64,000 bases of DNA, taken from positions 620,001 through 684,000 of the forward strand of contig NZ_CP017297.1 in NCBI RefSeq assembly GCF_001969445.1, in the 5' to 3' direction. The DNA is from Brachybacterium sp. P6-10-X1 (GTDB lineage: Bacteria > Actinomycetota > Actinomycetes > Actinomycetales > Dermabacteraceae). Of the stretch, positions 26,012 to 54,560 are shown one piece after another (position 1 is the first letter of the stretch; every line of letters starts with the position of its first letter). The notes under the pieces are model-generated. The model made no database searches. It was not told the origin of the DNA and saw only the letters and a program-made list of their open reading frames with translations. Both the position numbers and the translations under genes were made by a program.

Positions 26012-26015
26012 GCTC

Positions 26016-27155: not shown

Positions 27156-27183
27156 CACTGCCCCGCGCGGCGGGCTCAATCCC

Positions 27184-29847: not shown

Positions 29848-29895
29848 AATTTCTCCTAGTCAGAGGACACTTTGCGCCAGCCTACGACCCGCAGG

Positions 29896-29914: not shown

Positions 29915-30069
29915 AGATCTTGGTTTCTTGACCGCAGCGTTGACCAGTCAGCCCGCACTGCCTCCGAACGCACGGTCTACCCAATTCCGTCGTTCGGGGC
30001 GCCCTGGCTAACCCTCGTAGGTACGGGGCGGTATCCGCCGGTCCTTTCGGAACGAGAAGGAGCAGGATC

Positions 30070-39572: not shown

Positions 39573-39788
39573 TCAGGCGCGCTGCGCCGTGTAGCCGGCT
39601 TCGTCGACCGCGGCCAGCACGGCGGAGTCGTCGATCGGTTGAGCGGCTGTGATGACGAGCTTGCCCGTCTGCGCGCTGACGTCGATCTGGTCCACGCCAG
39701 CGATCTCGCCGACTTCCTCACGGACTGACATCTCGCAGTGCCCGCAGGTCATGCCGGTCACCTGGTATTCGTACTGGTTCTGATCCAA
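39573..39788 (-). CDS. copZ: Copper chaperone CopZ (HMA domain)
   Basis: 71 residues. The start is a TTG at 39788, supported by GGAGG 6 nt upstream. One heavy-metal-associated domain with GMTCGHC (Cys15, Cys18) and the usual beta-alpha-beta order. It carries Cu(I) to CopA. First gene of the operon, 60 bp downstream of a strong CsoR-controlled promoter. Confidence 0.93.
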   Translation of the reverse strand: MDQNQYEYQVTGMTCGHCEMSVREEVGEIAGVDQIDVSAQTGKLVITAAQPIDDSAVLAAVDEAGYTAQRA

Positions 39789-39808: not shown

Positions 39809-39868
39809 ATACCCCGAGGGGGTATGTGGCTCGCCCACCGTTTTACCCCTTAGGGGTACTCGTGTCAA
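39809..39868 (-). promoter_or_regulatory. CsoR-controlled promoter of copZ-copA-csoR with two perfect dyads
   Basis: On the minus strand TTGACA (39868-39863), a 17-bp spacer and TAAAAC make a near-consensus promoter. The spacer and -10 are covered by TACCCC-TAA-GGGGTA (39858-39844). A second dyad ATACCCC-CTC-GGGGTAT (39825-39809) lies between promoter and copZ. Both match the known CsoR operator type, giving strong, copper-relieved repression. Confidence 0.82.
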
Positions 39869-41139
39869 GCGGTCTCCGGGCGCGGCGCAAAAATTTGGTC
39901 GGGCCCGGGGCCCCGGGGAGCCGTGGCGGATTGCTCCAAGCGCTCGTGTCGACCTATCTCGTCCTTGTGGCGGAGAGCGGCGAGGGCGGGGCCGATGCCG
40001 ACGACGCCGACGAGCCCCCCACGGTCGTCCAGAGCGCCGATCGTGAAGGCGTCCGTGGTCGGGTCCCCGCCGAGCAGGGTCTCGCTGATCGCAGTGCCCG
40101 GCTCGCCGAGGACGGTCAGGCGGGTGCCATAGGCGTCACTGGTGAAGGTGGGCAGGGTTTTGAACGCGCCGGGGTCGGTGACGCTCGCGTCCAGGTCGAA
40201 CAAAGCAGTGCGGGCGGCATGTCGGCCCTGTTCGGTGGCGAGTGCCCAATGCCCCCGGGGTGTCGGGCGACCGCCCGGGGTCTGGATGCGGGCAGCGTCG
40301 CCGGCGGCGTAGATGTCGGCTGCGCTGGGTACACGGAGCCGGTCATCGACGATGAGACTTCCCTCGGTGATGGGCAGGCCGCTGCCGGCAAGCCACTCCG
40401 TGGCGGGCGCTGTGCCATGCGCGACCACGGCGAGGTCGACGAAAAGCTCTTGCCCGTCCGTGAGTTGGAGCCGCAGGCTCCCGCCAGTGAGAGAAGCGTT
40501 GGCCAGGGTGGCATCGGGAACGAAGTGGACATGGCGACGGTGCTGCTCGGCGATCCAAGCGCCCACAGTCGGCCCCACGTGACGCTGCAGCGGAGTCTTC
40601 GAGCGGCTGATCACGGTGACGTCGACGTCGGCGGCCTGGAGGGCGCCGGCCGCCTCGAGCGCGATGACGCCGCCGCCCAGCACCGCGACCCGCCGGGGTC
40701 GATCTGCGGTTCCGGTCAGGATGGCGAGGCGACGTAGACGCTGCGCGTCGGCGGCGGTGTGTAGTGTCAGGAAGCGATCCCGTGTGGCCGGCTCCGCCAC
40801 CCCGGTCCACCGCCGCGGGGCAGCTCCGGTGGCGATGACCAGCGCAGCCCAAGACAAACTCTCCCCGCTGGCCAGGTCCAGGCGGCGAGCCGAGGGGGAC
40901 AGCGACATCGCGGGGTCGGCGAGGCGCCAGGTGACGCCGTCGGCACGCGCCTCCGGCAGGGCCACCGCGTCGACCTCGTACTGGCCTTTCAGCAGCCCCT
41001 TGCTGACGGTCGTGCGGTTGTAGGGCGGGCCCGGCTCGCCGGTGACGACCGTGATCGCCCCGTCCCAGCCCTGCGCCCGTAGCTCCCCCACAGCTGCCGC
41101 TCCCGCGGCTCCGCCGCCGACCACAACGATCTCGGTCAT
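39865..41139 (-). CDS. FAD/NAD(P)-dependent oxidoreductase of the ferredoxin-reductase type
   Basis: 424 residues from the ATG at 41139. FAD-binding VVVGGGAAGAAAVGELR at the start, PPYNRTTVSKGLL, NAD-binding VAVLGGGVIALEAAGAL near 155, and the second FAD motif DIYAAGDAARI near 288. This is the layout of putidaredoxin/rhodocoxin reductase-like enzymes, which pass NADH electrons to a small Fe-S protein. No ferredoxin gene is nearby. It is divergent from the YHS/complex-I-like operon across a CsoR dyad, so it may be its electron-input partner or a general copper-stress reductase. Its 3' end reaches into the copZ promoter. Confidence 0.85.
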   Translation of the reverse strand: MTEIVVVGGGAAGAAAVGELRAQGWDGAITVVTGEPGPPYNRTTVSKGLLKGQYEVDAVALPEARADGVTWRLADPAMSLSPSARRLDLASGESLSWAALVIATGAAPRRWTGVAEPATRDRFLTLHTAADAQRLRRLAILTGTADRPRRVAVLGGGVIALEAAGALQAADVDVTVISRSKTPLQRHVGPTVGAWIAEQHRRHVHFVPDATLANASLTGGSLRLQLTDGQELFVDLAVVAHGTAPATEWLAGSGLPITEGSLIVDDRLRVPSAADIYAAGDAARIQTPGGRPTPRGHWALATEQGRHAARTALFDLDASVTDPGAFKTLPTFTSDAYGTRLTVLGEPGTAISETLLGGDPTTDAFTIGALDDRGGLVGVVGIGPALAALRHKDEIGRHERLEQSATAPRGPGPDQIFAPRPETA

Positions 41140-41161
41140 CCGTCCCAAATCCCTTCAGCGC

Positions 41162-41190
41162 TTGCAATGGATACCCCGGCGGGGTATAGA
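41162..41190 (+). promoter_or_regulatory. CsoR-type dyad inside the promoter of the YHS/complex-I-like operon
   Basis: TTGCAA (41162-41167), 17-bp spacer and TATAGA (41185-41190) form a promoter toward the YHS gene. The spacer holds ATACCCC-GGC-GGGGTAT (41171-41187), a perfect 7-bp dyad of the same type as at copZ. It lies midway between the flavoprotein gene and the YHS gene, so it can control both. This is the direct sequence link between the complex-I-like cluster and copper. Confidence 0.75.
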
Positions 41191-41290: not shown

Positions 41291-41536
41291 ATGGCTCACG
41301 AGCACAACCACGATCACGGACACGAGCACGCGCACGGCGGGCACAGCCACACTCCGGCGGCCGCGCCGGGTGAGGAGCTGGCGCAGTGCCCGGTGATGCC
41401 GGGCAGCATGGCGGTCAAGGCGGAGGCCGAGGCCGCTGGGCTGGTGCGCGAGTACGAGGGCACGACCTACTACCTCTGCTGCGACGCCTGCGCTCCGATG
41501 TTCGACGCGGATCCGGCGCAGTACGTCGGCGCCTGA
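41291..41536 (+). CDS. His-rich YHS-domain metal-binding protein
   Basis: 81 residues; AGGAG lies 7 nt before the ATG. The first 20 residues are nearly all His/Gly/Glu (HEHNHDHGHEHAHGGHSH), a metal-binding tail. A YHS domain follows (CPVMPGSMAV, TTYYLCCDACAPMFDADP) with Cys pairs. YHS domains occur in copper ATPases and chaperones. First gene behind the CsoR dyad, followed after 184 bp by the complex-I-like genes, for which it may be a copper-delivery factor. Confidence 0.85.
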   Translation: MAHEHNHDHGHEHAHGGHSHTPAAAPGEELAQCPVMPGSMAVKAEAEAAGLVREYEGTTYYLCCDACAPMFDADPAQYVGA

Positions 41537-41720: not shown

Positions 41721-42065
41721 GTGTATTCCGGGATCGTAGCGATGGCGCTGGTGGCGATGGCCGCTGTGCTGTTCCTCTACGCGCTCCATCGCGCCACCAG
41801 TGTGCGCGCCGATCCGCTGCGAGGCCTTCCTGCCCAGTCGGGCTGGATACCCGAAGAGCATGCTCTGTCGCGATTTCACGTGCGCTGGTATCTCGCCTCG
41901 ATCGTCTTCCTCGCGTTCGACGTCGAGATGCTGTTCATGTACCCGTGGGCAGTGGTGGTGGCAGAGGTAGGGATCTCTGCCGTCGTGGAGATGTTCTTGT
42001 TCCTCGGGGCGCTGTTCGTCGCCGTGGCGTGGGCCTGGCGGGAGGGAGCATTCCGATGGGTGTGA
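41721..42065 (+). CDS. nuoA: NuoA-like subunit of a complex-I-like membrane module
   Basis: 114 residues, three helices, GTG start behind AGGGAGG. The signature VRWYLASIVFLAFDVEMLFMYPWAV matches NuoA at helix 2 (positions about 58-80; given here in parts: VRWYLASIVFLAFDVE, MLFMYPWAV). The loop that in true NuoA carries the Cys-Gly motif near the quinone channel reads AQSGWIPEE, with Ser instead of Cys. First gene of the tight cluster 41721-49874 and 10 bp overlap with the next gene. NuoA normally connects the membrane arm to the redox arm, but no redox arm is encoded here. Confidence 0.85.
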   Translation: MYSGIVAMALVAMAAVLFLYALHRATSVRADPLRGLPAQSGWIPEEHALSRFHVRWYLASIVFLAFDVEMLFMYPWAVVVAEVGISAVVEMFLFLGALFVAVAWAWREGAFRWV

Positions 42066-43324
42066 CCAGGATCTTCGCCCGTCTGGCCGTCCGTGCCGCC
42101 CGGGTCCTCGTCGTCGAGGTCCCGGGCCAATGGCTCGCGCGCGTAGAGCTCGAACAGCAGATACTGCGCCGAGGTTGGCGTCAAGCGTGGACACCGGCAG
42201 ACGCGGACGTGCTCGCGGTGTGTGGCGTGCCCGGCCCCGAGCTCGCCGAGCTGGTGGACCGTCTCTGGGACCAGATGCCGGGCCCCCGGGTCCGCGCCGA
42301 CATTGATTCATCGGGAAGCGCAGGCTCTGCTCTCGAAGATGCCGCAACTCGACTTCTCGACACCCCGCACCACAGGACGGACGCCCGGGAGCGGGCGCAG
42401 AAGCCTCCGAGTCTCGAACCTCACCGCCAGATGGACAACGGTGACCACGAGGTAATGGACCACGGAGGTCACGGCCAGATTGACCACGAGGCGATGGGCC
42501 ACGGTGGCCACGGCCAGATTGACCACGAGGCGATGGGCCACGGTGGCCACGGCCAGATGGACCACGAGGCGATGGGCCACGGTGGCCACGGCCAGATGGA
42601 CCACGAGGCGATGGGCCACGGTGGCCATGGTGGGATGGACATGGCTCCGGAGGGAATTGCCTTGGCACAGGGCGGCGAGGATCGTGACGGTCTGGAGATG
42701 GATGTCCTGCATCTACCGCTCGGCCCGGCGCTTCCGTTCTGGCCGGCCGGTCTGGTGCTGCGCTGCTCGCTGCAGGGCGATGTCGTGGTCGAGGCCGCGG
42801 CGTCCGTCATCGACGGTCAGGACCACGAGACCGGAGCGCATGGCTCCCAGCCCGGCGGTGGCGCGACGACAGCCCCAGAAATGCGGTGTGACAGCGTGAT
42901 GGCACTGCTGGCGCTGGTCGGGGCCAGAGGTGCGGCGGCCAGTGCTCGCCAGGCTCGCGACGCTCTGTTGCGTGGTGATCGGCCTGCCGCCCGCGATGCC
43001 CTCGAGCGGGTCCACCGCACAGTCCGGAGATCCTGGTTGCTGCGCTGGTCTCTGCGAGGGGTGTTGTCGCTTGGTCAGTCCGATCTGGCGCGCCACGGTC
43101 TGCCGGAGGGGTATCAGGGGGATGCCTACGACCGACTGCTGTCGACGGTGGAACGAATCCGAGTCGAGATCGGTGGCGGGAGCACTGTGGCGGTGGAGGC
43201 CGTAGTGCCATTGGAGATCGTTCCGCACCTGGTGACGGGATCGGAGCTGGCCACTGTACGCCTGGCCGTGGCCAGTCTTGGTCTGGAGCCGTTTGCGACG
43301 GGCCAGGAGGTGAAGCATGCCTGA
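42056..43324 (+). CDS. Degenerate NuoB-like protein with His/Met tandem repeats
   Basis: 422 residues from an ATG at 42056. Residues 20-85 resemble NuoB (EQQILRRGWRQAW, ADADVLAVCGVPGPEL, DRLWDQMPGPRV), but none of the four cysteines that bind cluster N2 is present. Residues 125-195 are a repeat region of 13-residue units DHEAMGHGGHGQM, rich in His and Met. The C-terminal 210 residues are unknown (helical, Arg/Ala rich; VRRSWLLRWSLRGVLS). No membrane helix is seen. In the cluster it takes the place of NuoB-C-D, so it may cap the membrane module. The repeats suggest copper binding. Function is inference. Confidence 0.6.
   Translation: MGVTRIFARLAVRAARVLVVEVPGQWLARVELEQQILRRGWRQAWTPADADVLAVCGVPGPELAELVDRLWDQMPGPRVRADIDSSGSAGSALEDAATRLLDTPHHRTDARERAQKPPSLEPHRQMDNGDHEVMDHGGHGQIDHEAMGHGGHGQIDHEAMGHGGHGQMDHEAMGHGGHGQMDHEAMGHGGHGGMDMAPEGIALAQGGEDRDGLEMDVLHLPLGPALPFWPAGLVLRCSLQGDVVVEAAASVIDGQDHETGAHGSQPGGGATTAPEMRCDSVMALLALVGARGAAASARQARDALLRGDRPAARDALERVHRTVRRSWLLRWSLRGVLSLGQSDLARHGLPEGYQGDAYDRLLSTVERIRVEIGGGSTVAVEAVVPLEIVPHLVTGSELATVRLAVASLGLEPFATGQEVKHA
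42482..42637 (+). repeat. 39-bp in-frame tandem repeats coding for DHEAMGHGGHGQ(I/M)
   Basis: Four units of 39 bp (starts 42482, 42521, 42560, 42599), nearly identical at DNA level, the last diverging at its end; a degenerate unit precedes them. Each encodes 13 residues with four His and one or two Met. Such identity at the DNA level points to recent expansion, and copy number may vary between strains. Confidence 0.9.
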
Positions 43325-44249
43325 AGGCGTGGTGACCGTTCCTGCTGGGTGGGCCGTGCTGGCTGGGATCATACTTTGCGGTCTGGCCGTCTTCGCGGTG
43401 GCGCTGGAGGCGGTGCTGTCGGCCCGGGCGCTGGGCGCCGGCAGCGGGTGGATCGCTCCTCTGAGCGAGACTGCCCGGCTGCTGCGGCAGCGCCGACGCA
43501 CGACGGTGGCCGCGGACTCCCTGCTATGGCGGGTCGGTGGCACCGGGATGTTCGTGGGAGCGTTCTTGATGGTCGCCGTGATCCCGTTGGGGCGGTGGAC
43601 GGTGGCTGATCTCGATGTGGGCGTCGTGTGGTTCAACGTCGTCGATGTCATGGTCTGGGCCGCGGTGTGGCTGGTGGGGTGGGGTGCGAACTCGCGCTAC
43701 GGCCTGGTAGGGGGCTACCGGTTCCTCGCTCACGGCCTGGCCTACGAGCTGCCGCTGATGTTTGCTCTGGTCGCCCCGGCGATCGCGGCCAGCAGCCTCC
43801 GGGTCGGGGACGTGGTCGCCGCGCAGCAGGACCTGTGGTTCGTGGTGTGGATGCCGGTGGCGTTTGTCGTCTTCCTCATCGGCGTGATGGGTTTTTCCGT
43901 GTGGGGCCCGTTCGCACCGGCGCTGGCCGCAGACATCGCCGGTGGGGTGCTGGCCGAGGTCTCGGCGGTGGACCGTCTCCTCTTCCAAGCCGGCCGCTAC
44001 ATGTTCCTGGCCGCCGGGGCTGCTTTCTCGGTGCCGCTGTTCCTGGGTGGTGGCGCCGGGCCGTTGTTGCCGGGCTGGGCATGGGTGCTGGTCAAGGCTG
44101 TCGCGGTACTGGCCGTGCTGGTGTGGCTGCGCCGGAAGGTCCCCCTGTTGCGCCCGGACCGGTTCATGGAGGTCGGGTGGATGATCCTGCTTCCGGCGGC
44201 CTTGGTCCAGGACCTGGTCGTGTCACTCGTCGTGGTAGGGAAAGGCTGA
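43317..44249 (+). CDS. nuoH: NuoH-like subunit of the complex-I-like module
   Basis: 310 residues, about eight helices. GWGANSRYGLVGGYRFLAHG and AYELPLMFALVAPA match NuoH loop and helix 5. The quinone-site loop, normally RxGPNRxGP, reads RALGAGSGWIAPLSETARLL, and the acidic PFDLPEAE-x-ELV segment reads WGPFAPALAADIAGGVLAE, losing its glutamates. So the fold is kept but the quinone chamber looks altered. Starts 8 bp before the stop of the preceding gene. The gene symbol shows homology, not quinone reduction. Confidence 0.85.
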   Translation: MPEGVVTVPAGWAVLAGIILCGLAVFAVALEAVLSARALGAGSGWIAPLSETARLLRQRRRTTVAADSLLWRVGGTGMFVGAFLMVAVIPLGRWTVADLDVGVVWFNVVDVMVWAAVWLVGWGANSRYGLVGGYRFLAHGLAYELPLMFALVAPAIAASSLRVGDVVAAQQDLWFVVWMPVAFVVFLIGVMGFSVWGPFAPALAADIAGGVLAEVSAVDRLLFQAGRYMFLAAGAAFSVPLFLGGGAGPLLPGWAWVLVKAVAVLAVLVWLRRKVPLLRPDRFMEVGWMILLPAALVQDLVVSLVVVGKG

Positions 44250-44252
44250 ACC

Positions 44253-44816
44253 GTGCTGATCGCAATCGTGTTCTGGGTACTGGCCATAGTCGCTGTGACT
44301 GCGGGCGTGGCCGTGTTCGTGGTGGACTCCATGGCCCGGGCCACCTACGCGCTGGCACTGTCGTTCATCGCCGTGGGCGTGGTGATCCTCCTGCTGCAGC
44401 AGAGCTATCTCGGGCTCATCACGATCCTGATGATGGTGATGGAGATGGCCGTGATGGCCGTCTACATGGTGATGTTCATGGGCATGAACCCCGCGCTGAT
44501 GCCCATGGACATGACCCACGGGAAGAAGACGGCGATCGGCACCTCAGTCGGCGTTTTCGTGCTGTTGGCAGGCGGCGCCCTGCTCATTCCGTGGCCGCAA
44601 CGCCGCGGCGAGCCGCCCGAGAACCTGACGCATGCTCTCGGTCTCGAGATCATGGGCGAGAAGATGCTGGTCATGGCGGTGGTCGCTCCTGTCATGGTCG
44701 CAACCATCGTGGCCGGGGTGGTGCTGGCGGCCCATCGCACGCGCTACGACCGGTTCGGTGATGATCTGCGCCATCGTCCGGCCGACGACCCCCGATCGGA
44801 CGGTGTGGGCCAATGA
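44253..44816 (+). CDS. nuoJ: NuoJ-like subunit with a methionine-rich helix
   Basis: 187 residues, GTG start, about five helices. It aligns with NuoJ by position in the cluster and by the ALSFIAVGVVILLLQQSYLG helix 2-3 region. Residues 60-87 contain 12 methionines (MMVMEMAVMAVYMVMFMGMN and following PALMPMDM), unlike ordinary NuoJ, where this helix has a conserved Tyr and few Met. Met-rich helices in other proteins line Cu(I)/Ag(I) routes. Ends overlapping nuoK by 4 bp. Confidence 0.8.
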   Translation: MLIAIVFWVLAIVAVTAGVAVFVVDSMARATYALALSFIAVGVVILLLQQSYLGLITILMMVMEMAVMAVYMVMFMGMNPALMPMDMTHGKKTAIGTSVGVFVLLAGGALLIPWPQRRGEPPENLTHALGLEIMGEKMLVMAVVAPVMVATIVAGVVLAAHRTRYDRFGDDLRHRPADDPRSDGVGQ

Positions 44817-45115
44817 TTCTCGAAGCCGTACTGGTGGTGGCCGCCGCACTATTTGCGGTGGGCCTTTACGGCGCACTGTCCCAGCAAGTCGTCGTGATGG
44901 TGATGATGGGCCTGGAACTGATGATCAACGGGGTACTGCTGGCTGCCGCTGGATTCTGGTGGTTCCTCGCCCCTGACCCCTCCGGACAGGTCCTGCTGCT
45001 GGTGGTGCTGGCGGCCATGACAGTGGAGATGGCCATGGGCTTCGCCATCGCCACGCTGCTGCACCGCCGGCGCCAGACCGATATGACCGACATGGCCGAG
45101 GAGCTGTCTCAATGA
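44813..45115 (+). CDS. nuoK: NuoK-like subunit
   Basis: 100 residues, three helices. Both functional glutamates of NuoK are present, in MGLELMING (about residue 36) and TVEMAMG (about residue 69), so a proton path through this subunit may be intact. Length is as usual for NuoK. Overlaps its neighbours by 4 bp on both sides, so tight coupling with nuoJ and nuoL. Confidence 0.88.
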   Translation: MILEAVLVVAAALFAVGLYGALSQQVVVMVMMGLELMINGVLLAAAGFWWFLAPDPSGQVLLLVVLAAMTVEMAMGFAIATLLHRRRQTDMTDMAEELSQ

Positions 45116-46944
45116 CCGGGGCCCAGGCCGCACTCTTGGCCATGGTCATGCTTCCGGCCACCGTGGGCACCGTGCTTGCCTTCAGCCGGGCCCACCGCGC
45201 TGCGGCCCCGATCGCGGTCGGGGCCGCCGGACTCACCACCGTCCTGGCGTTCACTGCTGCGCTGGCGCGGCCGTCGCTGTCCTACCCGTTCATCGCCGGC
45301 GCCGACTTCGCCCTCGACGTCGACGCTCTCGCGGCGCTGACCGTGCCGATGATCGCCGCGGTGACCTTCCTGGTGCTGGTCTCCGCGGCAGGCAGCATCC
45401 GGGAGTCACAGGCTCGCTTCCACGGGTTGATGCTAATCTTCTCGGCGGCTGCCCTGGTGACCGCGACGGCCGCCAGCATCCCGGCGCTGCTGTTCGCGTG
45501 GGAGCTCATGGGGGCGACCTCCTACGCCCTGATCGGGTTCTGGTGGCGGGACTCCGACCGCGTCTCGGCGGGACTGACCGCCTTCATCACGACTCGTACC
45601 GCTGACCTGGGACTCTATGTCGCCGCTGGCGCCGCACTGGCCGGCGGGACGGGCATGGCCCTAGCCGACCTGCCGGCTGCGGAAGAATCGTGGCGGCACG
45701 TCGCGGCAGCCGGGATCCTGGTGGCGGCGCTGGGCAAGGCCGCGCAACTGCCCTTTTCCTTCTGGCTTTCTGGAGCGATGAAGGGCCCCAGCCCGGTGAG
45801 CGCGTTGCTGCACTCCGCCGCGATGGTCGCTATGGGCGGGTACCTGCTGTTGCGAGTGGAGCCGCTGCTGGCCTCGACCGGGTGGGCCGGGCCGGTGACC
45901 GCCTGGATCGGTGTGCTGACAGCGGTGCTGATGGGAGTCGTGGCGCTGGCGCAGCGCGAGTTCAAGCAGCTACTGGCCGCCTCCACGGTCGCTCAACTGG
46001 GTTTCGTGGTGCTCGCCGCCGGCGTGGGCGCCGTCAGCAGCGGCGCCGCCCATCTGGTGGCGCACGCCTCGGTCAAAGCCCTGCTCTTCCTGGCCGTCGG
46101 GGCGTGGCTGACGGCACTGGGCACTGAGGACCTCACGGAGCTGCGGGGGGCGGCCCGTCGGTGGCGAATGGTAGGTGTGGCCACCACCGTGGCGGCGCTG
46201 GCCTTGGCCGGGATCGCTCCGCTGTCCCTGTGGGCGACCAAGGACGCCGTGCTCACTGCCGCGCTCGAGTCCACCCCATGGCTCTACGCTGCGGGGCTGA
46301 TAGCTGCTGCCTTGTCGGCGGCCTATGCCGGCAAGGCCCTGTGGGCGATCTGGCGCCGCGGCGACCGCAAGGGCATCCGAGCCGGCGGTACTGGCGAAGT
46401 AGGAGCTCTGGAACAGATCCCGCTGGCTGTGCTCGCCGTCGGCGCGGCCGTGCTCGGAGTGCTCGCCCTGCCCCCGCTCAGTGGCATACTCGCCGACGCC
46501 CTGGGCGGGCACGGCAAGGTCTCGGCACCTGCACTGATCGTCTCGGCAGGGAGTGCGGTGGCCGTGCTGTTGCTGATGCTGCGGCTGCGCGCCCCCGAGC
46601 CGAGATGGGCTCTCGGCTGGCTGGGACTGGAGGCCGCCGCACACGCCGTCGTCCTCCGCCCCTCCCTGGCCCTGGCACACGCCCTGGCGCGGTTCGACGA
46701 CCACGTCCTGGATCGAGCGGTGACGACCCTGGCAGGGGCGGTCCCCGTGCTGGCGCGGGCCGTCGCCCGTGTCGACGACGCCGGGGTGGACCGGGGCGTC
46801 GAAGCCATTGCTGGCCAGGTGCGCCGACTCGGGCAGCTGGCCCGGGCCCCACAGACCGGGGCCATCCACCAGTACTTCCTCCAGACCGTCGCGGTGCTCG
46901 CCACCGGTGCCGTGATCTGGGCCGTCTACGCCGTGATGGGATGA
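45112..46944 (+). CDS. nuoL: NuoL-like antiporter-type subunit
   Basis: 610 residues, usual NuoL length. Key channel residues are kept: Glu in LLFAWELMGATSYALIGFWW (helix 5) and Lys in GKAAQLPFSFWLSGAMKGP (helix 7), with His in SALLHSAAMV. The C-terminus keeps the amphipathic stretch and last helix (about 575-610), the lateral rod of NuoL. It would conduct protons or sodium ions, driven by or driving movement of the module. It overlaps nuoM by 4 bp. Confidence 0.92.
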   Translation: MTGAQAALLAMVMLPATVGTVLAFSRAHRAAAPIAVGAAGLTTVLAFTAALARPSLSYPFIAGADFALDVDALAALTVPMIAAVTFLVLVSAAGSIRESQARFHGLMLIFSAAALVTATAASIPALLFAWELMGATSYALIGFWWRDSDRVSAGLTAFITTRTADLGLYVAAGAALAGGTGMALADLPAAEESWRHVAAAGILVAALGKAAQLPFSFWLSGAMKGPSPVSALLHSAAMVAMGGYLLLRVEPLLASTGWAGPVTAWIGVLTAVLMGVVALAQREFKQLLAASTVAQLGFVVLAAGVGAVSSGAAHLVAHASVKALLFLAVGAWLTALGTEDLTELRGAARRWRMVGVATTVAALALAGIAPLSLWATKDAVLTAALESTPWLYAAGLIAAALSAAYAGKALWAIWRRGDRKGIRAGGTGEVGALEQIPLAVLAVGAAVLGVLALPPLSGILADALGGHGKVSAPALIVSAGSAVAVLLLMLRLRAPEPRWALGWLGLEAAAHAVVLRPSLALAHALARFDDHVLDRAVTTLAGAVPVLARAVARVDDAGVDRGVEAIAGQVRRLGQLARAPQTGAIHQYFLQTVAVLATGAVIWAVYAVMG

Positions 46945-48437
46945 GCATGCTGAGTCTGATCATCTTCCTGCCCTTGGCGATCGCCGCCGTCCTCGCGGTG
47001 GTGCCAGCGATACCTCCCGCGGCCGCCCGCTGGACGTGGCTCGCCGTGAGCGCCGTGGAGCTGGTGCTCGTCGGAGTGCTCTGGGCCGGTTTCGAGGAGC
47101 CGGGCCCGAACAGGTTGGCGTACGAGGTGCAGGTGCCGTGGATCCCCGGCGTCAACAGCAGCTATCACGTCGGCGTGGACGGACTGTCATTACCTCTGCT
47201 GGCCATGACCGCAGTCATCTTCCTGGCGTGCGCCGTCTACGCCCTGCGGAACTCCGAACGTCCCCGCGAGCAGGCGGCACTTTTCCTGTTCCTGCAGGGT
47301 GTGAGTTTCGGAGTGTTCCTCGCCGCCGACCTCATCTTGTTCTTCGTGTTCTTCGATCTCTCCATCGTGGGCATGTACTTCGTGATCGCAGTGTGGGGCC
47401 ACGGCAACGCGGCTCGTTCGGCTCTGAAGTTCTTCCTTTACACGTTCCTGGGCTCCCTCGCGCTGCTGTTGGGCTTCATCGGGCTCTTCGTGGCCTCGGA
47501 ACCGCATACCTTCGACATCCCCGAGCTCGTCGCGGCCACCCCACTGAAGGACAGTCCACTGGCCGGCGGGCTGGTACTGGCGGCGATCGTGGTGGGCCTG
47601 GCTGTGAAGACACCCACTGTTCCCTTCCACACCTGGCTGCCCCCGGCTCACACCGACGCCCCGGCCACCGGCTCGGCGGTCCTGGCAGCCGTGCTGCTGA
47701 AGATGGGCACCTACGGGTTCGTGCGCATCGCCATGCCGATCCTGCCAGAGGCATGGAAGGCCTGGGCCTGGGTGATCATCGTGATCGGAATCGTCTCGGT
47801 GCTGTACGGAGCATTCGTGGCACTGGCACAGACCAACCTCAAACGCATGATCGCCTACACCTCCGTAAATCACATGGGCTACATCATCTTGGCCCTGGGC
47901 GTCGTCGGCCTCGTCGTTGACGACACTGCCCAGGCCCGTTCCGTGGCAGTCACGGGCGCCGTCGTCCAGATGGTTAGTCATGGGCTGATCACTGCCGCGC
48001 TCTTCCTCCTGGCCGGGGTGATGCAAGCCAGGGCCGGCACCTACGACATGGGCTCCTACGGCGGCCTGGCTGCCCCCGCGCCGCGCTACGCGGCACTGTT
48101 CGCAGTCGGGGCGTTCGCCTCCCTGGGCCTGCCCGGACTGTCCGGGTTCATCGCCGAGTTCCAGATCTTCGCCGGCAGCATCGCGGTCGCCCCCGTCACC
48201 GCCATCGCTCTGCTGGGCATCCTGGTCACCGCCGCCTTATTCCTGCGGGCGCTGCAGCGGGTGTTCACCGGCTCCACGGCGGGCCGGTCGCCCGGGTTTG
48301 CGGACCTGCACGCCCGGGAGCTGTGGTCGATCGCTTCGCTGCTGGCCCTGTCGCTGCTGATCGGGGTGCTGCCCCAGACATTGCTCGAGGTGATCGAGCC
48401 GGCCTCGGCCGCCCTCGTCGGCCTGATCGGGAGGTAA
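46941..48437 (+). CDS. nuoM: NuoM-like antiporter-type subunit
   Basis: 498 residues from the ATG at 46941, sharing ATGA with nuoL. Helix 7 motif GLAVKTPTVPFHTWLPPAHTDAP keeps the channel Lys (shown in parts: AVKTPTVPFHTWLP, PAHTDAP) and YTSVNHMGY keeps the next site. At helix 5, where NuoM has Glu (FFxEMxLxPMYF), this protein has Asp: FFVFFDLSIVGMYF. That is a conservative change at a site essential in E. coli. About 14 helices. Confidence 0.92.
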   Translation: MSMLSLIIFLPLAIAAVLAVVPAIPPAAARWTWLAVSAVELVLVGVLWAGFEEPGPNRLAYEVQVPWIPGVNSSYHVGVDGLSLPLLAMTAVIFLACAVYALRNSERPREQAALFLFLQGVSFGVFLAADLILFFVFFDLSIVGMYFVIAVWGHGNAARSALKFFLYTFLGSLALLLGFIGLFVASEPHTFDIPELVAATPLKDSPLAGGLVLAAIVVGLAVKTPTVPFHTWLPPAHTDAPATGSAVLAAVLLKMGTYGFVRIAMPILPEAWKAWAWVIIVIGIVSVLYGAFVALAQTNLKRMIAYTSVNHMGYIILALGVVGLVVDDTAQARSVAVTGAVVQMVSHGLITAALFLLAGVMQARAGTYDMGSYGGLAAPAPRYAALFAVGAFASLGLPGLSGFIAEFQIFAGSIAVAPVTAIALLGILVTAALFLRALQRVFTGSTAGRSPGFADLHARELWSIASLLALSLLIGVLPQTLLEVIEPASAALVGLIGR

Positions 48438-48440
48438 CCG

Positions 48441-49874
48441 GTGGAGGACTCGATGCAGATGCGACCCATCTTGCTGCTGCCGGAGATCATCATGTTCGCC
48501 GGCGGGCTCGTCGTCCTGATGGGCGGATCCTTCCTGCCCCGGAACCGGCAGTGGATCGCCCGCGCCGTGGCCGCCGTGACCCTGCTGGGGGCCGCGACCG
48601 TGGCCGCCCTCGCCATGGCCGGGCCGGCGCAGGCCGCGTTCTCCGGCACTTTCGCCGTGGACACCGCCACCGGCGCCGCCCGGGTGATCGCCGCCGTGAC
48701 GACCTTGTTGGTCCTGGGTGTGGCGTCCGGGGAGATCGCCGGTTCCCGCCGGGAGTCCGACACCTATGCGCTGCTGCTCTTCGCCACCACCGGCGTAATG
48801 GTACTGGCCGGGGCCACCGACTTGCTCGTGCTCATCGTTGGAATCCTGCTCGCCAGCATTCCCTTGTACGGGATCGTGGGGCTCACCGGCGGCCGCTCCG
48901 GGGCCGAAGCCGCCATGAAGACCTACTTCATGGGGGCCCTGTCTGGGATCCTGCTCATGCTCGGGGTCACCGTCCTCTACGCCTTGGCCGGTGGCACCGA
49001 CTATGCACGGCTCGCAGACGAGCTCCCCAACGCCCCGGCCGGGGCCGCGGGCGTTGGCGTGCTGTGCGTGCTCGCCGGGCTGCTTTTCAAAGCCGGGGGA
49101 GTGCCACTGCACTTCTGGGTGCCCGACGCCGCGCAAGGCACGGGAGTCACCGCCGCCACATTCCTCACCACGGTGCCCAAGATCGGAGCACTGGTGGCCG
49201 TGTACCGGATCGTGACTACGGCCGCTGCCGGAGACGGTTCCTGGCTGCTCGTGGCAGCGCTGCTCGCCACGGCATCCATGTTCCTCGGCAATCTCGCCGC
49301 CTACTGGCAACGTGATCCCCGCCGACTGCTGGGGTGGTCGACAGTGGCCCAGGTCGGGTACCTGCTCGTGCCCGTGGCCGCCGCCGGGCGCAGCGACCTC
49401 GCCCTGCCCTCGATGCTGTTCTACCTGGCGGCCTACGCCCTCACCAACGTAGCTGCATTCGCAGTCACCGCTGCGCTACCCGAGTACCGGGACCTGACCG
49501 CCTACCGGGGCCTAGCTCGCGCCCGCCCCGGGCTCGCACTGGCGTTGCTGATTGCGCTGTTAGGACTCGTGGGCACTCCGCCGCTGGCCGTGTTCGTCGG
49601 CAAACTCACCACTGCCACCGCCGCCTGGGACGGCGGGCACGGCTGGCTCGCCCTGCTGGTGATGCTCAACAGCGTGCTGAGCCTCTTCTACTACCTGCGC
49701 TGGTTCGGCCCCGTCTTCGCCCGCCCGACCGAGGACTCTCCAAGCTTTCCCCGCCCAGGTGGGACGGCTGCCTGGGCGGCGACGACCGCCGGTATCGCCG
49801 CGACCGCGAGCCTGGCACTCGGAATCCTCGCCGGTGTTCTCTGGGCAGTCCTGGAAGGGCCCTTGTTGCTCTAG
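48441..49874 (+). CDS. nuoN: NuoN-like antiporter-type subunit
   Basis: 477 residues from GTG at 48441 behind GGGAGG; an ATG at 48453 is possible. FKAGGVPLHFWVPDAAQG keeps the helix 7 Lys. At helix 5 the NuoN Glu (GIELISLPLF in E. coli) is replaced: GILLASIPLYGI. So of the three antiporter-like subunits NuoL keeps the helix 5 Glu, NuoM has Asp and NuoN has none. It ends the cluster. The 282 bp after it (49875-50156) carry no gene or clear hairpin that I can support. Confidence 0.9.
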   Translation: MEDSMQMRPILLLPEIIMFAGGLVVLMGGSFLPRNRQWIARAVAAVTLLGAATVAALAMAGPAQAAFSGTFAVDTATGAARVIAAVTTLLVLGVASGEIAGSRRESDTYALLLFATTGVMVLAGATDLLVLIVGILLASIPLYGIVGLTGGRSGAEAAMKTYFMGALSGILLMLGVTVLYALAGGTDYARLADELPNAPAGAAGVGVLCVLAGLLFKAGGVPLHFWVPDAAQGTGVTAATFLTTVPKIGALVAVYRIVTTAAAGDGSWLLVAALLATASMFLGNLAAYWQRDPRRLLGWSTVAQVGYLLVPVAAAGRSDLALPSMLFYLAAYALTNVAAFAVTAALPEYRDLTAYRGLARARPGLALALLIALLGLVGTPPLAVFVGKLTTATAAWDGGHGWLALLVMLNSVLSLFYYLRWFGPVFARPTEDSPSFPRPGGTAAWAATTAGIAATASLALGILAGVLWAVLEGPLLL

Positions 49875-50156
49875 GGACGATTCATATTGCGGATTGCCGC
49901 TGTGATCGGTCAGGACCTGGGTCGCGCCGTGGATTCGGCCCCTCACGAAACAGGCGTTGCCGTGGGAGCGGCCCGGCTCCTTCGTCATCTCAAGCGCGCA
50001 AAGGAATGGAGGCACTCGGAGTCCCCCGGGGTCAGGACGGCGTGCACTGACGGAAGGTCGTCGGAAACGCCTGCTGGGTCCGCAGATCGGGCAGATCCGC
50101 GCTGCTGCGGTAATTGGACGAGGTCGTCGTGATCGTCGCGACAGGGGCGTTCAGTC

Positions 50157-51560
50157 TCACGCCGCTGACTCCCGGTGCGTGCGGTCCAGGCGGATCATGT
50201 GTCTCCACTTGCGTCCGGCGACCGACTGGGTGAACCCCGGACCTGTCATTCGATCCGGCACGCGCGGGCTCGACAGGACTTCGATGTCGCTGGCGCTGGC
50301 TTGATCCACCAGGTATTGGTCGGTGCGCGGCACGGTCCCGGTGCGGAGCCAGTGCGGGGTCGCGGCGAGCAGGCGGGCGTTCGTCGCGATCGTCTCGCCG
50401 GCGGCTGTGGTGCCTTCGCGGTAGGGCATCTCGCCGGGATCGAGCAGCCGCATCTGTCGCCACCCTTCGTCGCGCCCGTGCCCTCGGGCGAGGAATGACG
50501 CGGTCAGGTCGAGGAAACCTGCGGTGGCTTCGTGGGGTGCCGGGAACCAGGTGGGCCAGGGAACCATGCCGATGCGGTCGGCAGTGCGGTTCAGTGCCGT
50601 GCCGGGGTAGTCGCGGACGGCTTCGCGGATCGCAGCCTGGATTTCGGCGGTTGTGGTGTTCTTCGCCGCCGCGCTGGTGGCCTGCGACGGGGTCGACGCG
50701 TCCACGACGAGCACGACCAAGGGCAGCTCGTAGGTGGGGTGGCGCTGCAGGATCTGGGCCCACTTGGCGACCTTGCCGCGGAATCCTCTCCCGACCGAGG
50801 CGGTGGTCTCGACCGCGATCACCAACCCGTCGCGCCGGACGATACCGGCATCCGGCTTGCGGCCCAGGTCCGCCTGGGCAGCTTCGATCCCGGCCGCGGC
50901 CAGCAGCGCCGGCAGGGCCATCTGCTTCTCTCCGAGCACGGTGGCGACGTCGCAGTACTCCGCGACTCGCAGCGCGAGTTCGGTGGTGAGCACGTTGTGG
51001 CGGTCGAAGCGGTGCTCGGCGTCCCAACCCTGCCCGCCGGTGACCGCGACATGTTCGGCGAACGTGAGGGACTTGCGGTATCGGGCGTAGGCGTCGATCT
51101 GGTCGCCGACGGCCCACATGCTCATCCGGTCCCGGGCGGGGGCGAGACGATTCATGCCCGCCGACACGTGCCCGTGAGCGAGCAGGCCGGCGGAGAAGGG
51201 TGCCGACAGCGACTTGGGGTAGGTGCGCGCCATGACGGCGGAGCCGGTGATGGCCGCCAGCTGTTCACGAGTGATGGTCCGCCACGAGGCCACCGCGCCG
51301 AGGGCGCCGAGGATGGAGGGGCGGTGACGGTTGGTGCGCATCTGCGCCAGCGCATCGGCGGGGTCGGTGACGAAGCTGGCCGGGACGCCCGACCACCGCT
51401 TCTGCTCCGGGGTGGCGCGGCGGTGCTGGGAGGCGCTGACCCAACCGTCGGAGATGCCGGTGGCGAACATGCCGCCCCAGTACGGGTCGGCCCTATCGGT
51501 GGCGCGGAACGCACCGGTCGGGTTGCGGGAGGGAAGCTCGTCGAGGGCTCTGCTGGTCAT
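50157..51560 (-). CDS. Possible relaxase / replication-relaxation family protein
   Basis: 467 residues from the ATG at 51560, 5 bp after the TraG-like stop. An N-terminal wHTH-like segment (TITREQLAAITGSAVMARTY) is followed by HNVLTTELALRVAEYC. Then comes a core with KPDAGIVRRDGLVIAVE, TTASVGRGFRGKVAKWAQIL and ELPLVVLVVD, which looks like a PD-(D/E)xK nuclease-type fold (Asp, Glu, Lys). This pattern resembles the Replic_Relax proteins of actinobacterial plasmids. Function would be nicking or initiating at the origin or oriT. No classic relaxase Tyr/His triad is seen, so the assignment is tentative. Confidence 0.5.
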   Translation of the reverse strand: MTSRALDELPSRNPTGAFRATDRADPYWGGMFATGISDGWVSASQHRRATPEQKRWSGVPASFVTDPADALAQMRTNRHRPSILGALGAVASWRTITREQLAAITGSAVMARTYPKSLSAPFSAGLLAHGHVSAGMNRLAPARDRMSMWAVGDQIDAYARYRKSLTFAEHVAVTGGQGWDAEHRFDRHNVLTTELALRVAEYCDVATVLGEKQMALPALLAAAGIEAAQADLGRKPDAGIVRRDGLVIAVETTASVGRGFRGKVAKWAQILQRHPTYELPLVVLVVDASTPSQATSAAAKNTTTAEIQAAIREAVRDYPGTALNRTADRIGMVPWPTWFPAPHEATAGFLDLTASFLARGHGRDEGWRQMRLLDPGEMPYREGTTAAGETIATNARLLAATPHWLRTGTVPRTDQYLVDQASASDIEVLSSPRVPDRMTGPGFTQSVAGRKWRHMIRLDRTHRESAA

Positions 51561-51565
51561 GGTGG

Positions 51566-54109
51566 TCAGTCCTCCTGGCTGGGCGGGTAGACGGTGTCGC
51601 GGAACGCGTCGCGGTCGTCCTCGAAGGGGTGGATCGTGGCGGTGAAGACGTTCATCCGCTGCTGATCGAGGACGGTGCGCACGAGCGTCATGTAGCGGGG
51701 GAGGTCCATCACTTCCTTGGGGTGGACGACCTCGAACCCCTCGGTCGCTCCGCCGGTGAAGTCCTTGGCGATCTGCGAAGCGACATCGGAGTTCTCCTGC
51801 GCGTAGGAGATCACCGTCGACAGCGAGAACGTGGTGCGCCGGACCGCCTCGGGCAACTGCTCGGGCTCCTGAGTGGCAAAGATCGGGATCACTCCGAACG
51901 CGCGGCCTTGCATGCGGGTCCACTCGATGACATCGGGGGAGTTCTTGGCGACGCGGGAGAGCTCGTCGGAGATGATCGCGACGTAGCGCCCCTGGTTTTC
52001 CCATCCGGCGCAGACGTCTTGGATCGCCTCCCGCAGCGAGTACAACAGCATGCCGGACAGCGCGTCACCGACCGCGGCGGGCAGGCGGACGTTGTCGGCG
52101 CTGGCACCGGTGCGTCTCGAGGTGGCACCGGAGTTGATGACGATCCGCAGATGGCGGGCCAGGATCTGTTCGAAGGAGGCGACGCGGCCGTCGGTGCGCC
52201 ACCAGTGCGGGGCGAGCATCAGCACCTCCACCTTCGACGAGGGGGCCTTTTGCAATCCGGCGCGGGCGGCGGGCTTCACGGCCGGGCCGTACAGTTCCGA
52301 CAGTCCGCCGACGGCGATCTCGATCGCCTCTCGATCGCCGTCGATGCGGTTCGCCTTCACGTCGGCGAGGTGGCGGCGGATGGTCTCGGCCAGGTGGATG
52401 CCGAACTCGTCGCCGTAGCCGCCCAGCAGTACGTGCGCGATCGACATCGGGGTCGACAGCGGTGCCGGCGTCGGCGCATCCGGGTGCGTGGCGATCGCAT
52501 CGGTCAGCACCGACGTGGGGACGCCGAGCGCGGTAGTGAACACGCCGCGCAGTGTCTTGGCAGAGGCGGCGCCGATGGAGTCATCGCCCCAGTGGTAGAT
52601 CATCGTGTCGACGAACTTCGCGGCCCGGTCGGTGACCGTGGTGCCGGCGGAGAACATGTCGATGCGCGCCCCGTCGGGGTCGGCGAGGTCGAACACGTGC
52701 ACCTTCCGGGTCCCGAGCGTTCTCGCCCAGGCCTGGTACTCGGCGGCGTCGGTTCCGGACTTCGACTCGAACGCGATGACCGCCCCCTGGGTGCCGAGCA
52801 TCGACTGGGACTGCTCGACCGTCTCGGCCTCCTCACGGGGCAGGGGCTGTTGGTCCATCATCAAGAACGCGAACAGCGACCGAAGCAGGTACGACTTGCC
52901 CGAGCGGGGTTTGCCGAACACGGCGATTCCCGCCCACAGGTCCCGCGCCGACAGCCGCACCATCTGACCGAGCGCATCGACCCCGATCACCGGTCCGATG
53001 CGTCGCAGCAGCGTGGCGGGCGCGTGCCGGTCACCGGTCTCCGAAGTGCCGGAGGCGGACCCCGACGCGGGGGCGAGCACCCCGACCGGCAGGAGCGCAC
53101 CGAGCTTGAACGATCCGCGATCCAGCGGGTAGTCCCCTGGGCTCGCAGCGGTCTTTTTCGCCCCGGACGGGGTAAAGTCGCCGGCGGACTCGGCGCGGCC
53201 GAGATCATTGCCCTGCGTCGGTTGCCGCGTGCGCAGCGCCCAGCGCCGGCGGGGGAGTGGGAACCGGCCGTCACGGAAGCGCCGCTGGTACCGCCTGCCG
53301 CACGCGATGTAGGCCAGCATTGTCAACAGCGGGAGCACCAATGTGGCCATCACAGCCGTGCCGATCGTGGTGGTGATCTCCGGCGGGACGACGTCGCCGA
53401 TCGCAGGCGCGGCCAGGCGCGCACCGACGCCCGCGACGAGCAGCGCCACAGCAGCGACGAGATGCTGGGCGATCACCCAGGGCCGAGGGAAGGACACGGT
53501 GCGGGTCTCGAGGTCGAAGCCGTGCATGTCCCCGGCCACCTGACGCAGCAGCGAATCCACACTGGCGCCCGACGTGGACGCCGCGGCGACGTGCGCGATC
53601 ACGCCGTTCGGTTCCAGCGAGTGGTGGGTGCCGCCGACGATCCGGCCCTTGATCCACCGGTCCCAGGCCCGGTCCTCGTGGCGGGTCAGGCTCCGGTGCG
53701 GGGCGCGCATCGTGATCGCCACCCAAGAGCCGACCGGCATGTCCGCCAGCGACGCCGCCATCGAGAACGGATCCTTGCCCGTCTGCGTCGTCGAAGTGCG
53801 GGTACCGCGGGGTCGGAAGAACAGATGCCTCATCGACGGCGCCGCGCCCAGGTCGGGAAGTTCGTCGGCGTAAGCGAGTTTGCCGGTGACCGCATGAGCC
53901 GCCGACAACGCTGCCTTGTTCATGTTGTCCGTGTCCGGAGTGACGAGGTAGTTCTCCAGTCCCTCGTCGGTCATCACGGCCAGGAAAGTGGCGGCGGTGC
54001 GGGGGCCCAGCGACGACGCGAACGACCGCATCCGAGTCGCGACGAGCTCGGGACTGTTCTGCCCGCCGGATGCTCGCGTCACCCGGCGGAGCACTGTACG
54101 AGTACTCAT
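51566..54109 (-). CDS. TraG/VirD4-type coupling ATPase of the transfer system
   Basis: 847 residues from ATG 54109 (a GTG 6 bp upstream is possible; neither has a strong ribosome site). Two helices at about 205-265, a Pro/Ser linker, then the motor domain: Walker A FGKPRSGKSYLL near 401, Walker B VAIISDEL near 710, and FATQEPEQLPEAVRR as the Q-loop. Such proteins bring the relaxosome to the channel. Together with the gene after it and the operon 23093-15309, it makes a conjugation system. Interrupted from that operon by 27 kb of cargo. Confidence 0.82.
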   Translation of the reverse strand: MSTRTVLRRVTRASGGQNSPELVATRMRSFASSLGPRTAATFLAVMTDEGLENYLVTPDTDNMNKAALSAAHAVTGKLAYADELPDLGAAPSMRHLFFRPRGTRTSTTQTGKDPFSMAASLADMPVGSWVAITMRAPHRSLTRHEDRAWDRWIKGRIVGGTHHSLEPNGVIAHVAAASTSGASVDSLLRQVAGDMHGFDLETRTVSFPRPWVIAQHLVAAVALLVAGVGARLAAPAIGDVVPPEITTTIGTAVMATLVLPLLTMLAYIACGRRYQRRFRDGRFPLPRRRWALRTRQPTQGNDLGRAESAGDFTPSGAKKTAASPGDYPLDRGSFKLGALLPVGVLAPASGSASGTSETGDRHAPATLLRRIGPVIGVDALGQMVRLSARDLWAGIAVFGKPRSGKSYLLRSLFAFLMMDQQPLPREEAETVEQSQSMLGTQGAVIAFESKSGTDAAEYQAWARTLGTRKVHVFDLADPDGARIDMFSAGTTVTDRAAKFVDTMIYHWGDDSIGAASAKTLRGVFTTALGVPTSVLTDAIATHPDAPTPAPLSTPMSIAHVLLGGYGDEFGIHLAETIRRHLADVKANRIDGDREAIEIAVGGLSELYGPAVKPAARAGLQKAPSSKVEVLMLAPHWWRTDGRVASFEQILARHLRIVINSGATSRRTGASADNVRLPAAVGDALSGMLLYSLREAIQDVCAGWENQGRYVAIISDELSRVAKNSPDVIEWTRMQGRAFGVIPIFATQEPEQLPEAVRRTTFSLSTVISYAQENSDVASQIAKDFTGGATEGFEVVHPKEVMDLPRYMTLVRTVLDQQRMNVFTATIHPFEDDRDAFRDTVYPPSQED

Positions 54110-54314
54110 GCCCACCCATATGCGAAGGAGCGGATTTCTTCCTACGCTCGGTGGAATCCCTGGCGATAGCGCTCACGGTTCGCGGCGGTCGACGCTCGAA
54201 CTCGCCGACCCGGTGGGCTGCAGGTGTGATGCTCCGTTACGGAAGCCGCATGAAGGGCGCAACTCAAGACGAAGCAGCAGGATCTTCGGACGTGAGCCAT
54301 GCTTACATGTGTGC

Positions 54315-54560
54315 ATGGCACACAAGTATTTCCAGAACCTCGGGTCGAAGATCGGCGGGGATCGGCGCGACCAGCGCGTGGCCATCCGCGAGGCGGGATT
54401 CGCTGACGAGTCGGAGGCTGCAACGTGGGGTCGTAGCGTGGTCGGCGACGCCGGAGCGTCCGCCACTAGAATGGAGAACATCAAGACCCTACGTCGAGCG
54501 CGGCCTGATCTGACTCTCTCAACGGCGACCTACATCGCGAACCACATACACCTTCACTGA
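54315..54560 (+). CDS. Small protein of unknown function
   Basis: 81 residues (MAHKYFQNLGSKIGGDRRDQ..., ending TATYIANHIHLH). Charged, with a helix around KTLRRARPDLTLSTATYIAN. No clear ribosome-binding site and no family known to me. Divergent from the TraG-like gene. Confidence 0.4.
   Translation: MAHKYFQNLGSKIGGDRRDQRVAIREAGFADESEAATWGRSVVGDAGASATRMENIKTLRRARPDLTLSTATYIANHIHLH

Follow-up and report, generated by a model that had tools for sequence, protein, structure and literature searches.

A complex I-like membrane module in a copper island of Brachybacterium as a candidate proton-motive-force-driven Cu(I) exporter

Introduction

What would the membrane arm of respiratory complex I (NDH-1) do in the midst of copper genes? 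The question is posed by Brachybacterium sp. P6-10-X1, in which a stretch of 64,000 nucleotides (positions 620001-684000 of a single-contig genome of 4.39 Mb, G000; hereafter the window) holds an operon of eight plus-strand genes, overlapping or abutting one another at 41721-49874 in the order nuoA, a nuoB-like gene, nuoH, nuoJ, nuoK, nuoL, nuoM and nuoN. An initial annotation of this DNA had described a tightly coupled eight-gene set, and the packing of the genes bears it out; the observation itself was thus confirmed, while the reading placed on it was supported in part. How complex I couples its quinone chemistry to proton channels that lie far away has long been an open problem. Here we compare the operon with related loci in other bacteria and lean towards a proton-motive-force (PMF)-driven Cu(I) export machine built from the complex I membrane arm.

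Gene content and related loci

Seven of the eight products were assigned by Pfam and NCBIfam to membrane subunits of complex I: NuoA (41721-42065; 114 aa; PF00507, E = 6.8e-23), NuoH (43317-44249; 310 aa; PF00146, E = 2.1e-45), NuoJ (44253-44816; 187 aa; PF00499), NuoK (44813-45115; PF00420), NuoL (45112-46944; 610 aa; PF00361, with the NuoL model aligned over residues 8-597 at a score below its cut-off), NuoM (46941-48437; 498 aa; TIGR01972, 473 bits, above the cut-off) and NuoN (48441-49874; 477 aa). The second gene, in the position of nuoB and termed here the B-slot gene, lies at 42056-43324 (422 aa from the ATG at 42056). A search for sigma-70-like promoters close to the operon found none.

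Scanning genomes with an alignment of B-slot proteins yielded at least 228 related stretches, the best 80 of which were kept as named loci; these come from Actinomycetes, apart from two Lysobacter loci and one record without a class. Plasmid matches were obtained from Actinomycetota (Rhodococcus, Gordonia, Mycobacterium, Arthrobacter, Pseudarthrobacter, Curtobacterium, Pseudonocardia, Ornithinimicrobium and Rubrobacter), as well as from Halomonas, Paracoccus, Sulfitobacter, Acuticoccus and Roseivivax, and gene order was read for 14 plasmid records. Carriers of the module include many Actinomycetota and some Pseudomonadota, with copies on chromosomes as well as plasmids. Together with 10 relatives, the named and plasmid loci make up 104 module stretches. 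A NuoJ profile run against 396 Actinomycetota genomes separated them cleanly: 35 had a match of at least 169 bits, other matches (E 1e-10) reaching at most 79 bits; 20 of the 36 strong matches were fetched as a profile set. Controls comprised 20 ordinary complex I stretches and 20 random ones, taken at fixed positions in five genomes. Named stretches had a median length of 21.1 kb (5.6-21.6 kb), plasmid stretches 28.5 kb, and controls 20 kb (one 14.2 kb). A few loci occur twice (L038 = L067 and L039 = L063 between relatives and named loci; L178 = L099 and L184 = L049 for the profile set).

The full set of A, H, J, K, L, M and N was present in 72/80 named, 13/14 plasmid, 9/10 relative and 20/20 profile-set loci, and of the eight incomplete named loci, seven come from stretches of less than 14.3 kb. 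A NuoM tree of 60 rows set the 40 module rows (39 hand-picked loci and the window) on one side of a branch with a Shimodaira-Hasegawa-like approximate likelihood ratio support of 99; the tree was built by a quick method and carries a long-branch warning. The rows nearest to the window span several families, Lysobacter included, which we take to point to horizontal transfer. Between subunits, pairwise identities correlated at 0.75-0.94 (76 loci, uncorrected for kinship).

Five of the 20 ordinary NuoH control loci (L157, L159, L160, L161 and L163) had no NuoCD, NuoE or NuoF nearby and represent a second kind of nuo cluster; L161 is the stretch cut at 14.2 kb, and four of the five branch apart in the NuoM tree.

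Absence of redox partners

The only NuoH match in the genome of the window is the operon's own, and the NuoD and NuoF families gave zero matches there (NuoC, NuoE, NuoG and NuoI were not searched genome-wide), in keeping with the annotated lack of a redox arm; like G000, the genomes G010, G015 and G070 had no NuoF match. Across the 104 module stretches no canonical NuoB, NuoCD, NuoE or NuoF was detected, with the reservation that these searches, like those for the full set, used single references from the window and Escherichia coli, so that distant partners could escape. One locus of the profile set, L194, did produce a NuoCD match, which is probably its own B-slot protein, since E. coli NuoCD alone gave no tblastn match there and the Rubrobacter B-slot protein did.

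Elsewhere in the genome, NuoD was matched in 6 of 11 module genomes and NuoF in 7 of 11; the module is therefore not a plain replacement of complex I, and in the genomes with NuoF an NADH module may be borrowed. Among 37 other genomes of the genus, two (G010 and G015) encode a NuoH like that of the window, and the remaining 35 had no NuoH match. In G015 the NuoH matches (C1:334185-336460) fall into two pieces about 1.3 kb apart, as if interrupted.

A NuoB-NuoD fusion with a metal-binding middle

The B-slot protein of the window had no Pfam match and only a weak NCBIfam match to NuoB (19 bits). A profile search of the Protein Data Bank (PDB) with an alignment of 18 relatives matched NuoB over the N-terminal part (E = 4.4e-10) and, weakly, NuoD over the C-terminal part (E = 0.0036); hydrogenase subunits were also matched. 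The NuoD family PF00346 was detected directly in three of seven B-slot relatives scanned, from Rubrobacter (4e-17), Paracoccus (1.7e-14) and Halomonas (2.7e-7). Between the two halves lie heavy-metal-binding domains (HMBD), two in Rubrobacter and three in Paracoccus, or, in actinobacterial proteins, a stretch rich in Gly, His, Asp, Glu and Met. In the 67 of 73 proteins with a clear boundary, linkers averaged 94 residues with 15.8% His, 8.2% Met and 0.0% Cys. An AlphaFold2 model from 53 sequences (predicted local distance difference test, pLDDT, 80.6; predicted template modelling score 0.76) showed two well-folded domains joined by a disordered His/Met/Asp-rich linker at residues 128-203, counted from the reading at 42059 (42440-42667, plus strand; pLDDT under 50). 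All of the 50 best listed among 560 Foldseek hits to this model (E up to 10) were complex I-family entries, and the chains hit are presumably the small (NuoB) or 49-kDa (NuoD) subunit, an assignment of chain letters drawn in part from the PDB search and in part assumed.

The residues of the redox centres are gone from this scaffold. In five aligned B-slot members, the window's included, no Cys matches any of the four E. coli NuoB positions that we take to hold Fe-S cluster N2, in line with the NuoB-like protein without Fe-S cysteines described at the outset; other cysteines are present, among which C55, in the NuoB-like part, is the sole nearly invariant one across 53 proteins. The histidine of the NuoD HPxxHG motif is likewise unmatched in the five members, and their NuoD-like part has no NiFe-type Cys pairs. 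The peripheral arm is thus not simply lost: a NuoB-NuoD scaffold is kept, with a metal-binding stretch in its middle. The description of a machine without a redox arm holds for the redox residues but had overlooked this scaffold, in particular the NuoD-like domain and the His-rich linker.

A methionine array in NuoJ, NuoK and NuoA

The initial annotation had also missed an array of conserved methionines in NuoJ, NuoK and NuoA. In NuoJ, M27, M60, M61, M65, M68, M72, M76, M78, M85, M87 and M138, together with H89, were found in 100 of 100 module rows (93 distinct), while each of the eleven methionines was absent from all 19 ordinary NuoJ sequences, which were taken from E. coli and actinobacterial loci. 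Met accounts for 11 of the 25 invariant columns in an alignment of 12 sequences, whose identity to the window falls as low as 36% in Rubrobacter and 32% in Paracoccus. M27 and M138 stand apart; the others and H89 fall within codons 60-89 (44430-44519, plus strand), as a stripe in transmembrane helix 3 followed by a Met/His loop. The motif MMxxEMxxMxxxMxxxM occurred in 101/104 module loci and 20/20 profile-set loci, compared with 0/42 control stretches, and the three loci lacking it (L055, L095 and L128) have no NuoJ match at all. M61, M65, M68, M72 and M76, a subset chosen after inspection, lie on one helix face, and by the positive-inside rule the helix presumably ends on the cytosolic side.

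Further methionines have been added beside acidic residues of neighbouring subunits. NuoK carries M29, M31, M69, M73 and mostly M75 around its kept E36 and E72, with M29, M69 and M73 present in all of 100 module rows and in none of 20 ordinary sequences. NuoA has module-specific H53, M70 and M73 beside D79 and E81 (E. coli numbers, both kept), the two methionines being found in all of 98 module rows and none of 21 ordinary ones. Composition drift was considered as a source of the array and rejected, because overall Met content is lower in the module than in ordinary NuoL (1.9 vs 4.0%), NuoM (2.4 vs 3.2%) and NuoN (2.1 vs 2.7%); the conserved Met positions gained number three in NuoL, three in NuoM and none in NuoN. 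Judged by conservation, Cu(I)-type ligands are in place, and a weak structural model would set them along the membrane.

Quinone-site and channel residues

Fifteen module rows were compared in E. coli numbering at NuoH, NuoL, NuoM and NuoN residues that we take to be functionally important. NuoH has no GPNR quinone loop and no E216 or E218, and E241 is Arg in all 15 rows; most residues of the acidic loop are thereby lost, E228 being kept and E220 being Asp in the window. A Cys is absent from the ND3-loop position of the window's NuoA, as annotated, but this is not diagnostic because E. coli NuoA also has none there.

Most antiporter residues are retained. The channel residues said to be kept in NuoK and NuoL largely are, namely NuoK E36 and E72 and, in 15/15 rows, NuoL E144, K229, H254, H338, K342 and K399, with the exception of NuoL K169, replaced in 15/15. 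NuoM keeps K234, K265, H322, H348 and E407 in all 15 rows, and its E144 is Asp in 12. NuoN keeps K247 and K395 in all rows and K217 in all but one (the window retains it), and has replaced E133 and H305 in 15/15 (by Leu and Gln in the window).

Copper context

The operon lies behind a CsoR-type operator, as initially annotated: ATACCCCGGCGGGGTAT at 41171-41187 is a perfect ATACCCC-N3-GGGGTAT, an exact match to what we take to be the consensus, placed 550 bp before nuoA with one small gene in between. That gene (41291-41536, plus strand) encodes a His-rich YHS-domain protein (PF04945, E = 7.9e-9). The copA/copZ neighbourhood is equally as described, with a CsoR-family repressor (36597-36935; PF02583, E = 2.2e-29), a CopA-type P1B ATPase (37025-39346; PF00122 and PF00403), whose assignment to copper relies on a sequence motif that we assume to be diagnostic, and a CopZ/HMA (heavy-metal-associated) copper chaperone (39573-39788; PF00403, E = 5e-13), all on the minus strand. 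A second exact CsoR-type operator (39809-39825) lies upstream of copZ, and a pyridine-nucleotide-disulphide oxidoreductase (39865-41148, minus strand; PF07992, E = 2.2e-45) diverges from the YHS/nuo side.

The association recurs at most of the related loci. A copper marker was found in 51/80 named (45/80 after filtering; 41/56 among loci with at least 8 kb upstream), 10/14 plasmid, 8/10 relative and 14/20 profile-set stretches, and in 0/20 random and 0/20 ordinary complex I stretches. Because the reference sequences for the markers were drawn from the window and module plasmids, the plasmid counts are partly circular and the named set less so, some named loci being close kin of a reference plasmid. 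Clustering the neighbours of 94 loci without chosen markers ranked CPC P-type ATPases first (25 loci) and multicopper oxidases second (22), with DUF305 (14) fourth and the DUF326 protein (12) fifth, and none of these four families occurred in 40 controls; several families look like wrong-frame open reading frames (ORFs), the third-ranked probably among them. CsoR-type sites with up to two mismatches lay within 700 bp of nuoA in 15/78 named, 2/14 plasmid and 0/9 relative loci, compared with 0/20 ordinary nuoA genes and 0/4000 pieces drawn from the 20 random stretches.

Relation to known systems

Complex I shares with the module its seven membrane subunits and most antiporter-channel residues, but the module is without the quinone-site and Fe-S residues, has NuoB and NuoD fused, and carries the methionine array in NuoJ, NuoK and NuoA; in terms of an NADH module (NuoE, F and G), NuoE and NuoF were missing from all module stretches and NuoF from the genome of the window (NuoG was not searched genome-wide). 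Mrp antiporters and group 4 membrane-bound hydrogenases share antiporter-like and NuoH/B/D-like ancestry. The module's L, M and N proteins match NuoL, NuoM and NuoN models better than Mrp models, and the operon is not an MrpA-G set, NuoH and NuoB/D-like proteins being present (MrpE-G were not searched for). Group 4 hydrogenases differ by the conserved NiFe Cys pairs that the NuoD-like part lacks. In DabA/DabB CO2 uptake, a NuoL-like subunit is thought to lend PMF to non-redox work; that system combines one antiporter-like subunit with a zinc enzyme, whereas the module combines a whole membrane arm with a metal-binding fusion. In the CusA relay and the MxxxM filter of Ctr1, Cu(I) crosses the membrane along rows of methionines; these proteins have folds unrelated to the module and contain no complex I parts.

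The gene set itself has been printed before, so that the suggestion of an undescribed system does not stand. It appears as a second, seven-gene partial NDH-1 operon, nuoAHJKLMN, read as a marine adaptation (Penn and Jensen 2012, PMC3314556) and again as a marine or osmotic one (PMC4018334), the word "copper" occurring zero times in the portions available of either text. The marine/osmotic reading is repeated in PMC6002675 and widened to osmoadaptation in PMC6676996, which notes a carrier from copper-rich mine fluid and offers osmotic stress as the reason; another listed carrier comes from a copper mineral (PMC6002675, PMC6676996). Published carriers are Salinispora, Streptomyces and Kocuria (PMC3314556, PMC4018334, PMC6002675, PMC6676996). 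We equate the module with this operon through its gene set and Kocuria marina SO9-6, a listed carrier (PMC6002675) that is our locus L084. In the portions available, these publications interpret the operon as a pump for protons or sodium that serves marine or osmotic life, and contain no copper, B-D fusion or methionine link. No copper link of the gene set was found in the literature searched, where coverage was thin for subscription journals and bioRxiv.

A candidate Cu(I) exporter

The reading that we favour, with some reserve, is that the module exports Cu(I) at the expense of the PMF. The eight products would assemble into one complex, with the NuoB-NuoD fusion placed where the Fe-S/quinone module sits in complex I; its His/Met/Asp-rich (or HMBD) linker would gather cytosolic Cu(I) and pass it to the methionine stripe in transmembrane helix 3 of NuoJ and to the loop that follows, from where the ion would be moved out, helped by the methionines that adjoin essential glutamates in NuoK and NuoA. 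The driving work would be done by proton entry through the antiporter-like NuoL, NuoM and NuoN (and NuoK), making a complex I without redox chemistry an nH+/Cu(I) antiporter. A machine that has no redox arm must draw its energy from an ion gradient, for which the antiporter subunits suggest protons; the methionines and the metal-binding linker suggest Cu(I) (or Ag(I)), and the exporters and oxidases encoded nearby suggest transport out of the cell.

The copper link of the module is well supported, as is the initially proposed ion-coupled copper-stress machine derived from complex I, by a conserved operon that lacks redox partners in its vicinity and has copper genes as neighbours, by the copper-type operators of some loci, and further by the metal-binding fusion, the methionine array and the mostly kept antiporter channels.

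Several observations weigh against Cu(I) export. On the structural side, the best Foldseek E value for the B-slot model was 3e-3, with none at 0.001 or better and template modelling scores to the query of 0.18-0.34, and the linker is short and His-poor in some members (Roseivivax and Acuticoccus). Over all seven invariant methionines of NuoJ transmembrane helix 3, periodicity was marginal (0.057); the NuoJ model, with a helix at 53-76, is of low confidence (pLDDT 60), so that the helix faces rest on sequence. The changes at NuoN E133/H305, NuoM E144 and NuoL K169 leave it possible that some of the channels conduct differently from those of complex I. On the side of gene context, copper genes are common on mobile elements, and a copper marker was also found in 3/10 stretches taken elsewhere on module plasmids; 29/80 named loci (both Lysobacter included) and 6/20 of the profile set have none in the stretch, and CsoR-type operators near nuoA are confined to a minority of loci.

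Whether the module represents a functional class new to the complex I superfamily, as a PMF-driven metal pump in which Cu(I) on a NuoJ/K/A methionine ladder replaces quinone chemistry, we consider evenly balanced. If true, it would be a class of bacterial copper exporter apart from P1B ATPases and resistance-nodulation-division (RND) pumps, spread on mobile DNA through Actinomycetota and Pseudomonadota, and would add a copper-detoxification system to mobile resistance islands. With channels and coupling axis kept and the redox end swapped for a metal site, it would allow coupling to be studied without redox chemistry, and the printed marine/osmotic reading of a common gene set would be overturned.

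Alternative explanations

The rival that we take most seriously, although we hold it to be unlikely, is a copper-gated monovalent cation/proton antiporter, in which Cu(I), sensed by the linker and the methionine array, would switch H+/Na+/K+ exchange without itself being transported, so that pH or ion balance is protected under copper stress. Most antiporter residues are kept, and a metal-binding stretch on the soluble part in a copper context would suit such gating; a sensor, however, needs one site, and eleven invariant NuoJ methionines together with those of NuoK and NuoA look like a path.

Movement of copper in the opposite direction is improbable. A PMF-driven importer or loader could supply multicopper oxidases or cytochrome oxidase, multicopper oxidases are the second commonest neighbour family (22/94 loci), and the methionine array is equally compatible with inward transport. 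The company kept in the window is, however, mostly of the detoxification type (CopA, CsoR, CopZ, CueP and DUF326), and CPC P-type ATPases are the commonest neighbours at other loci.

More doubtful still is the published sodium/proton pump for marine or osmotic adaptation, which draws on strain comparisons in four papers (PMC3314556, PMC4018334, PMC6002675, PMC6676996) whose available portions contain no functional test of the operon. It leaves the metal-binding fusion and the methionines unexplained; module plasmids have hosts not only from seawater but also from soil, sputum and sediment, and the two carriers from copper mineral and copper-rich mine fluid also sit poorly with it.

A Cu(I):quinone oxidoreductase, or another ion pump still driven by redox chemistry, in which copper replaces the Fe-S clusters, would make use of the NuoB-NuoD scaffold kept at the old quinone module, yet the GPNR loop of NuoH, the HPxxHG histidine of NuoD and the cluster cysteines of NuoB have all been lost, and we regard it as very improbable. 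A decaying or hitch-hiking, functionless remnant of complex I is scarcely credible despite a truncated plasmid copy (L055), an insertion sequence in another (L054) and the split NuoH of G015, because full gene sets in most loci and methionines invariant across phyla down to 32-36% identity need selection.

Variant loci and surroundings of the operon

Some plasmid loci depart from the common layout. In L054 (Pseudarthrobacter plasmid pA) an IS3 transposase (14581-15743) stands between the B-slot gene and nuoH, and L055 (Rhodococcus pRB29) keeps only A, B and fragments. Immediately upstream of the module, Paracoccus and Sulfitobacter plasmids (L036 and L050) encode a sigma factor, a DUF6629 protein and an additional antiporter-like product, and in the Halomonas KO116 plasmid (L048) the ergothioneine genes egtB and egtD (20457-22729) follow directly after nuoN.

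Within the window, the rest of the copper island lies at 23350-30480, with a multicopper oxidase (23350-24864, minus strand), a two-component pair (25244-27155, plus), CueP (28610-29296, minus) and a DUF326 protein (30070-30480, plus), as well as DsbD_TM, redoxin and DUF1541 proteins. CueP, DUF1541 and DUF326 form one copper cluster (28610-30480), and DUF326 recurs beside the module at other loci. At 33317-35622 a further P-type ATPase adjoins an ArsR-type regulator and is probably for another metal. Downstream of the operon, 50000-56000 holds long ORFs on both strands, six of which were scanned without a Pfam match. The stretch at 5478-22956 resembles a mobile element, with SSB and NERD proteins, a DNA polymerase III alpha-type protein with an intein (5478-10751), a phage-tail-lysozyme/VanY protein (16305-18125) and an FtsK/HerA-type ATPase (18177-22388); an integrated conjugative element may be the carrier of the copper island.

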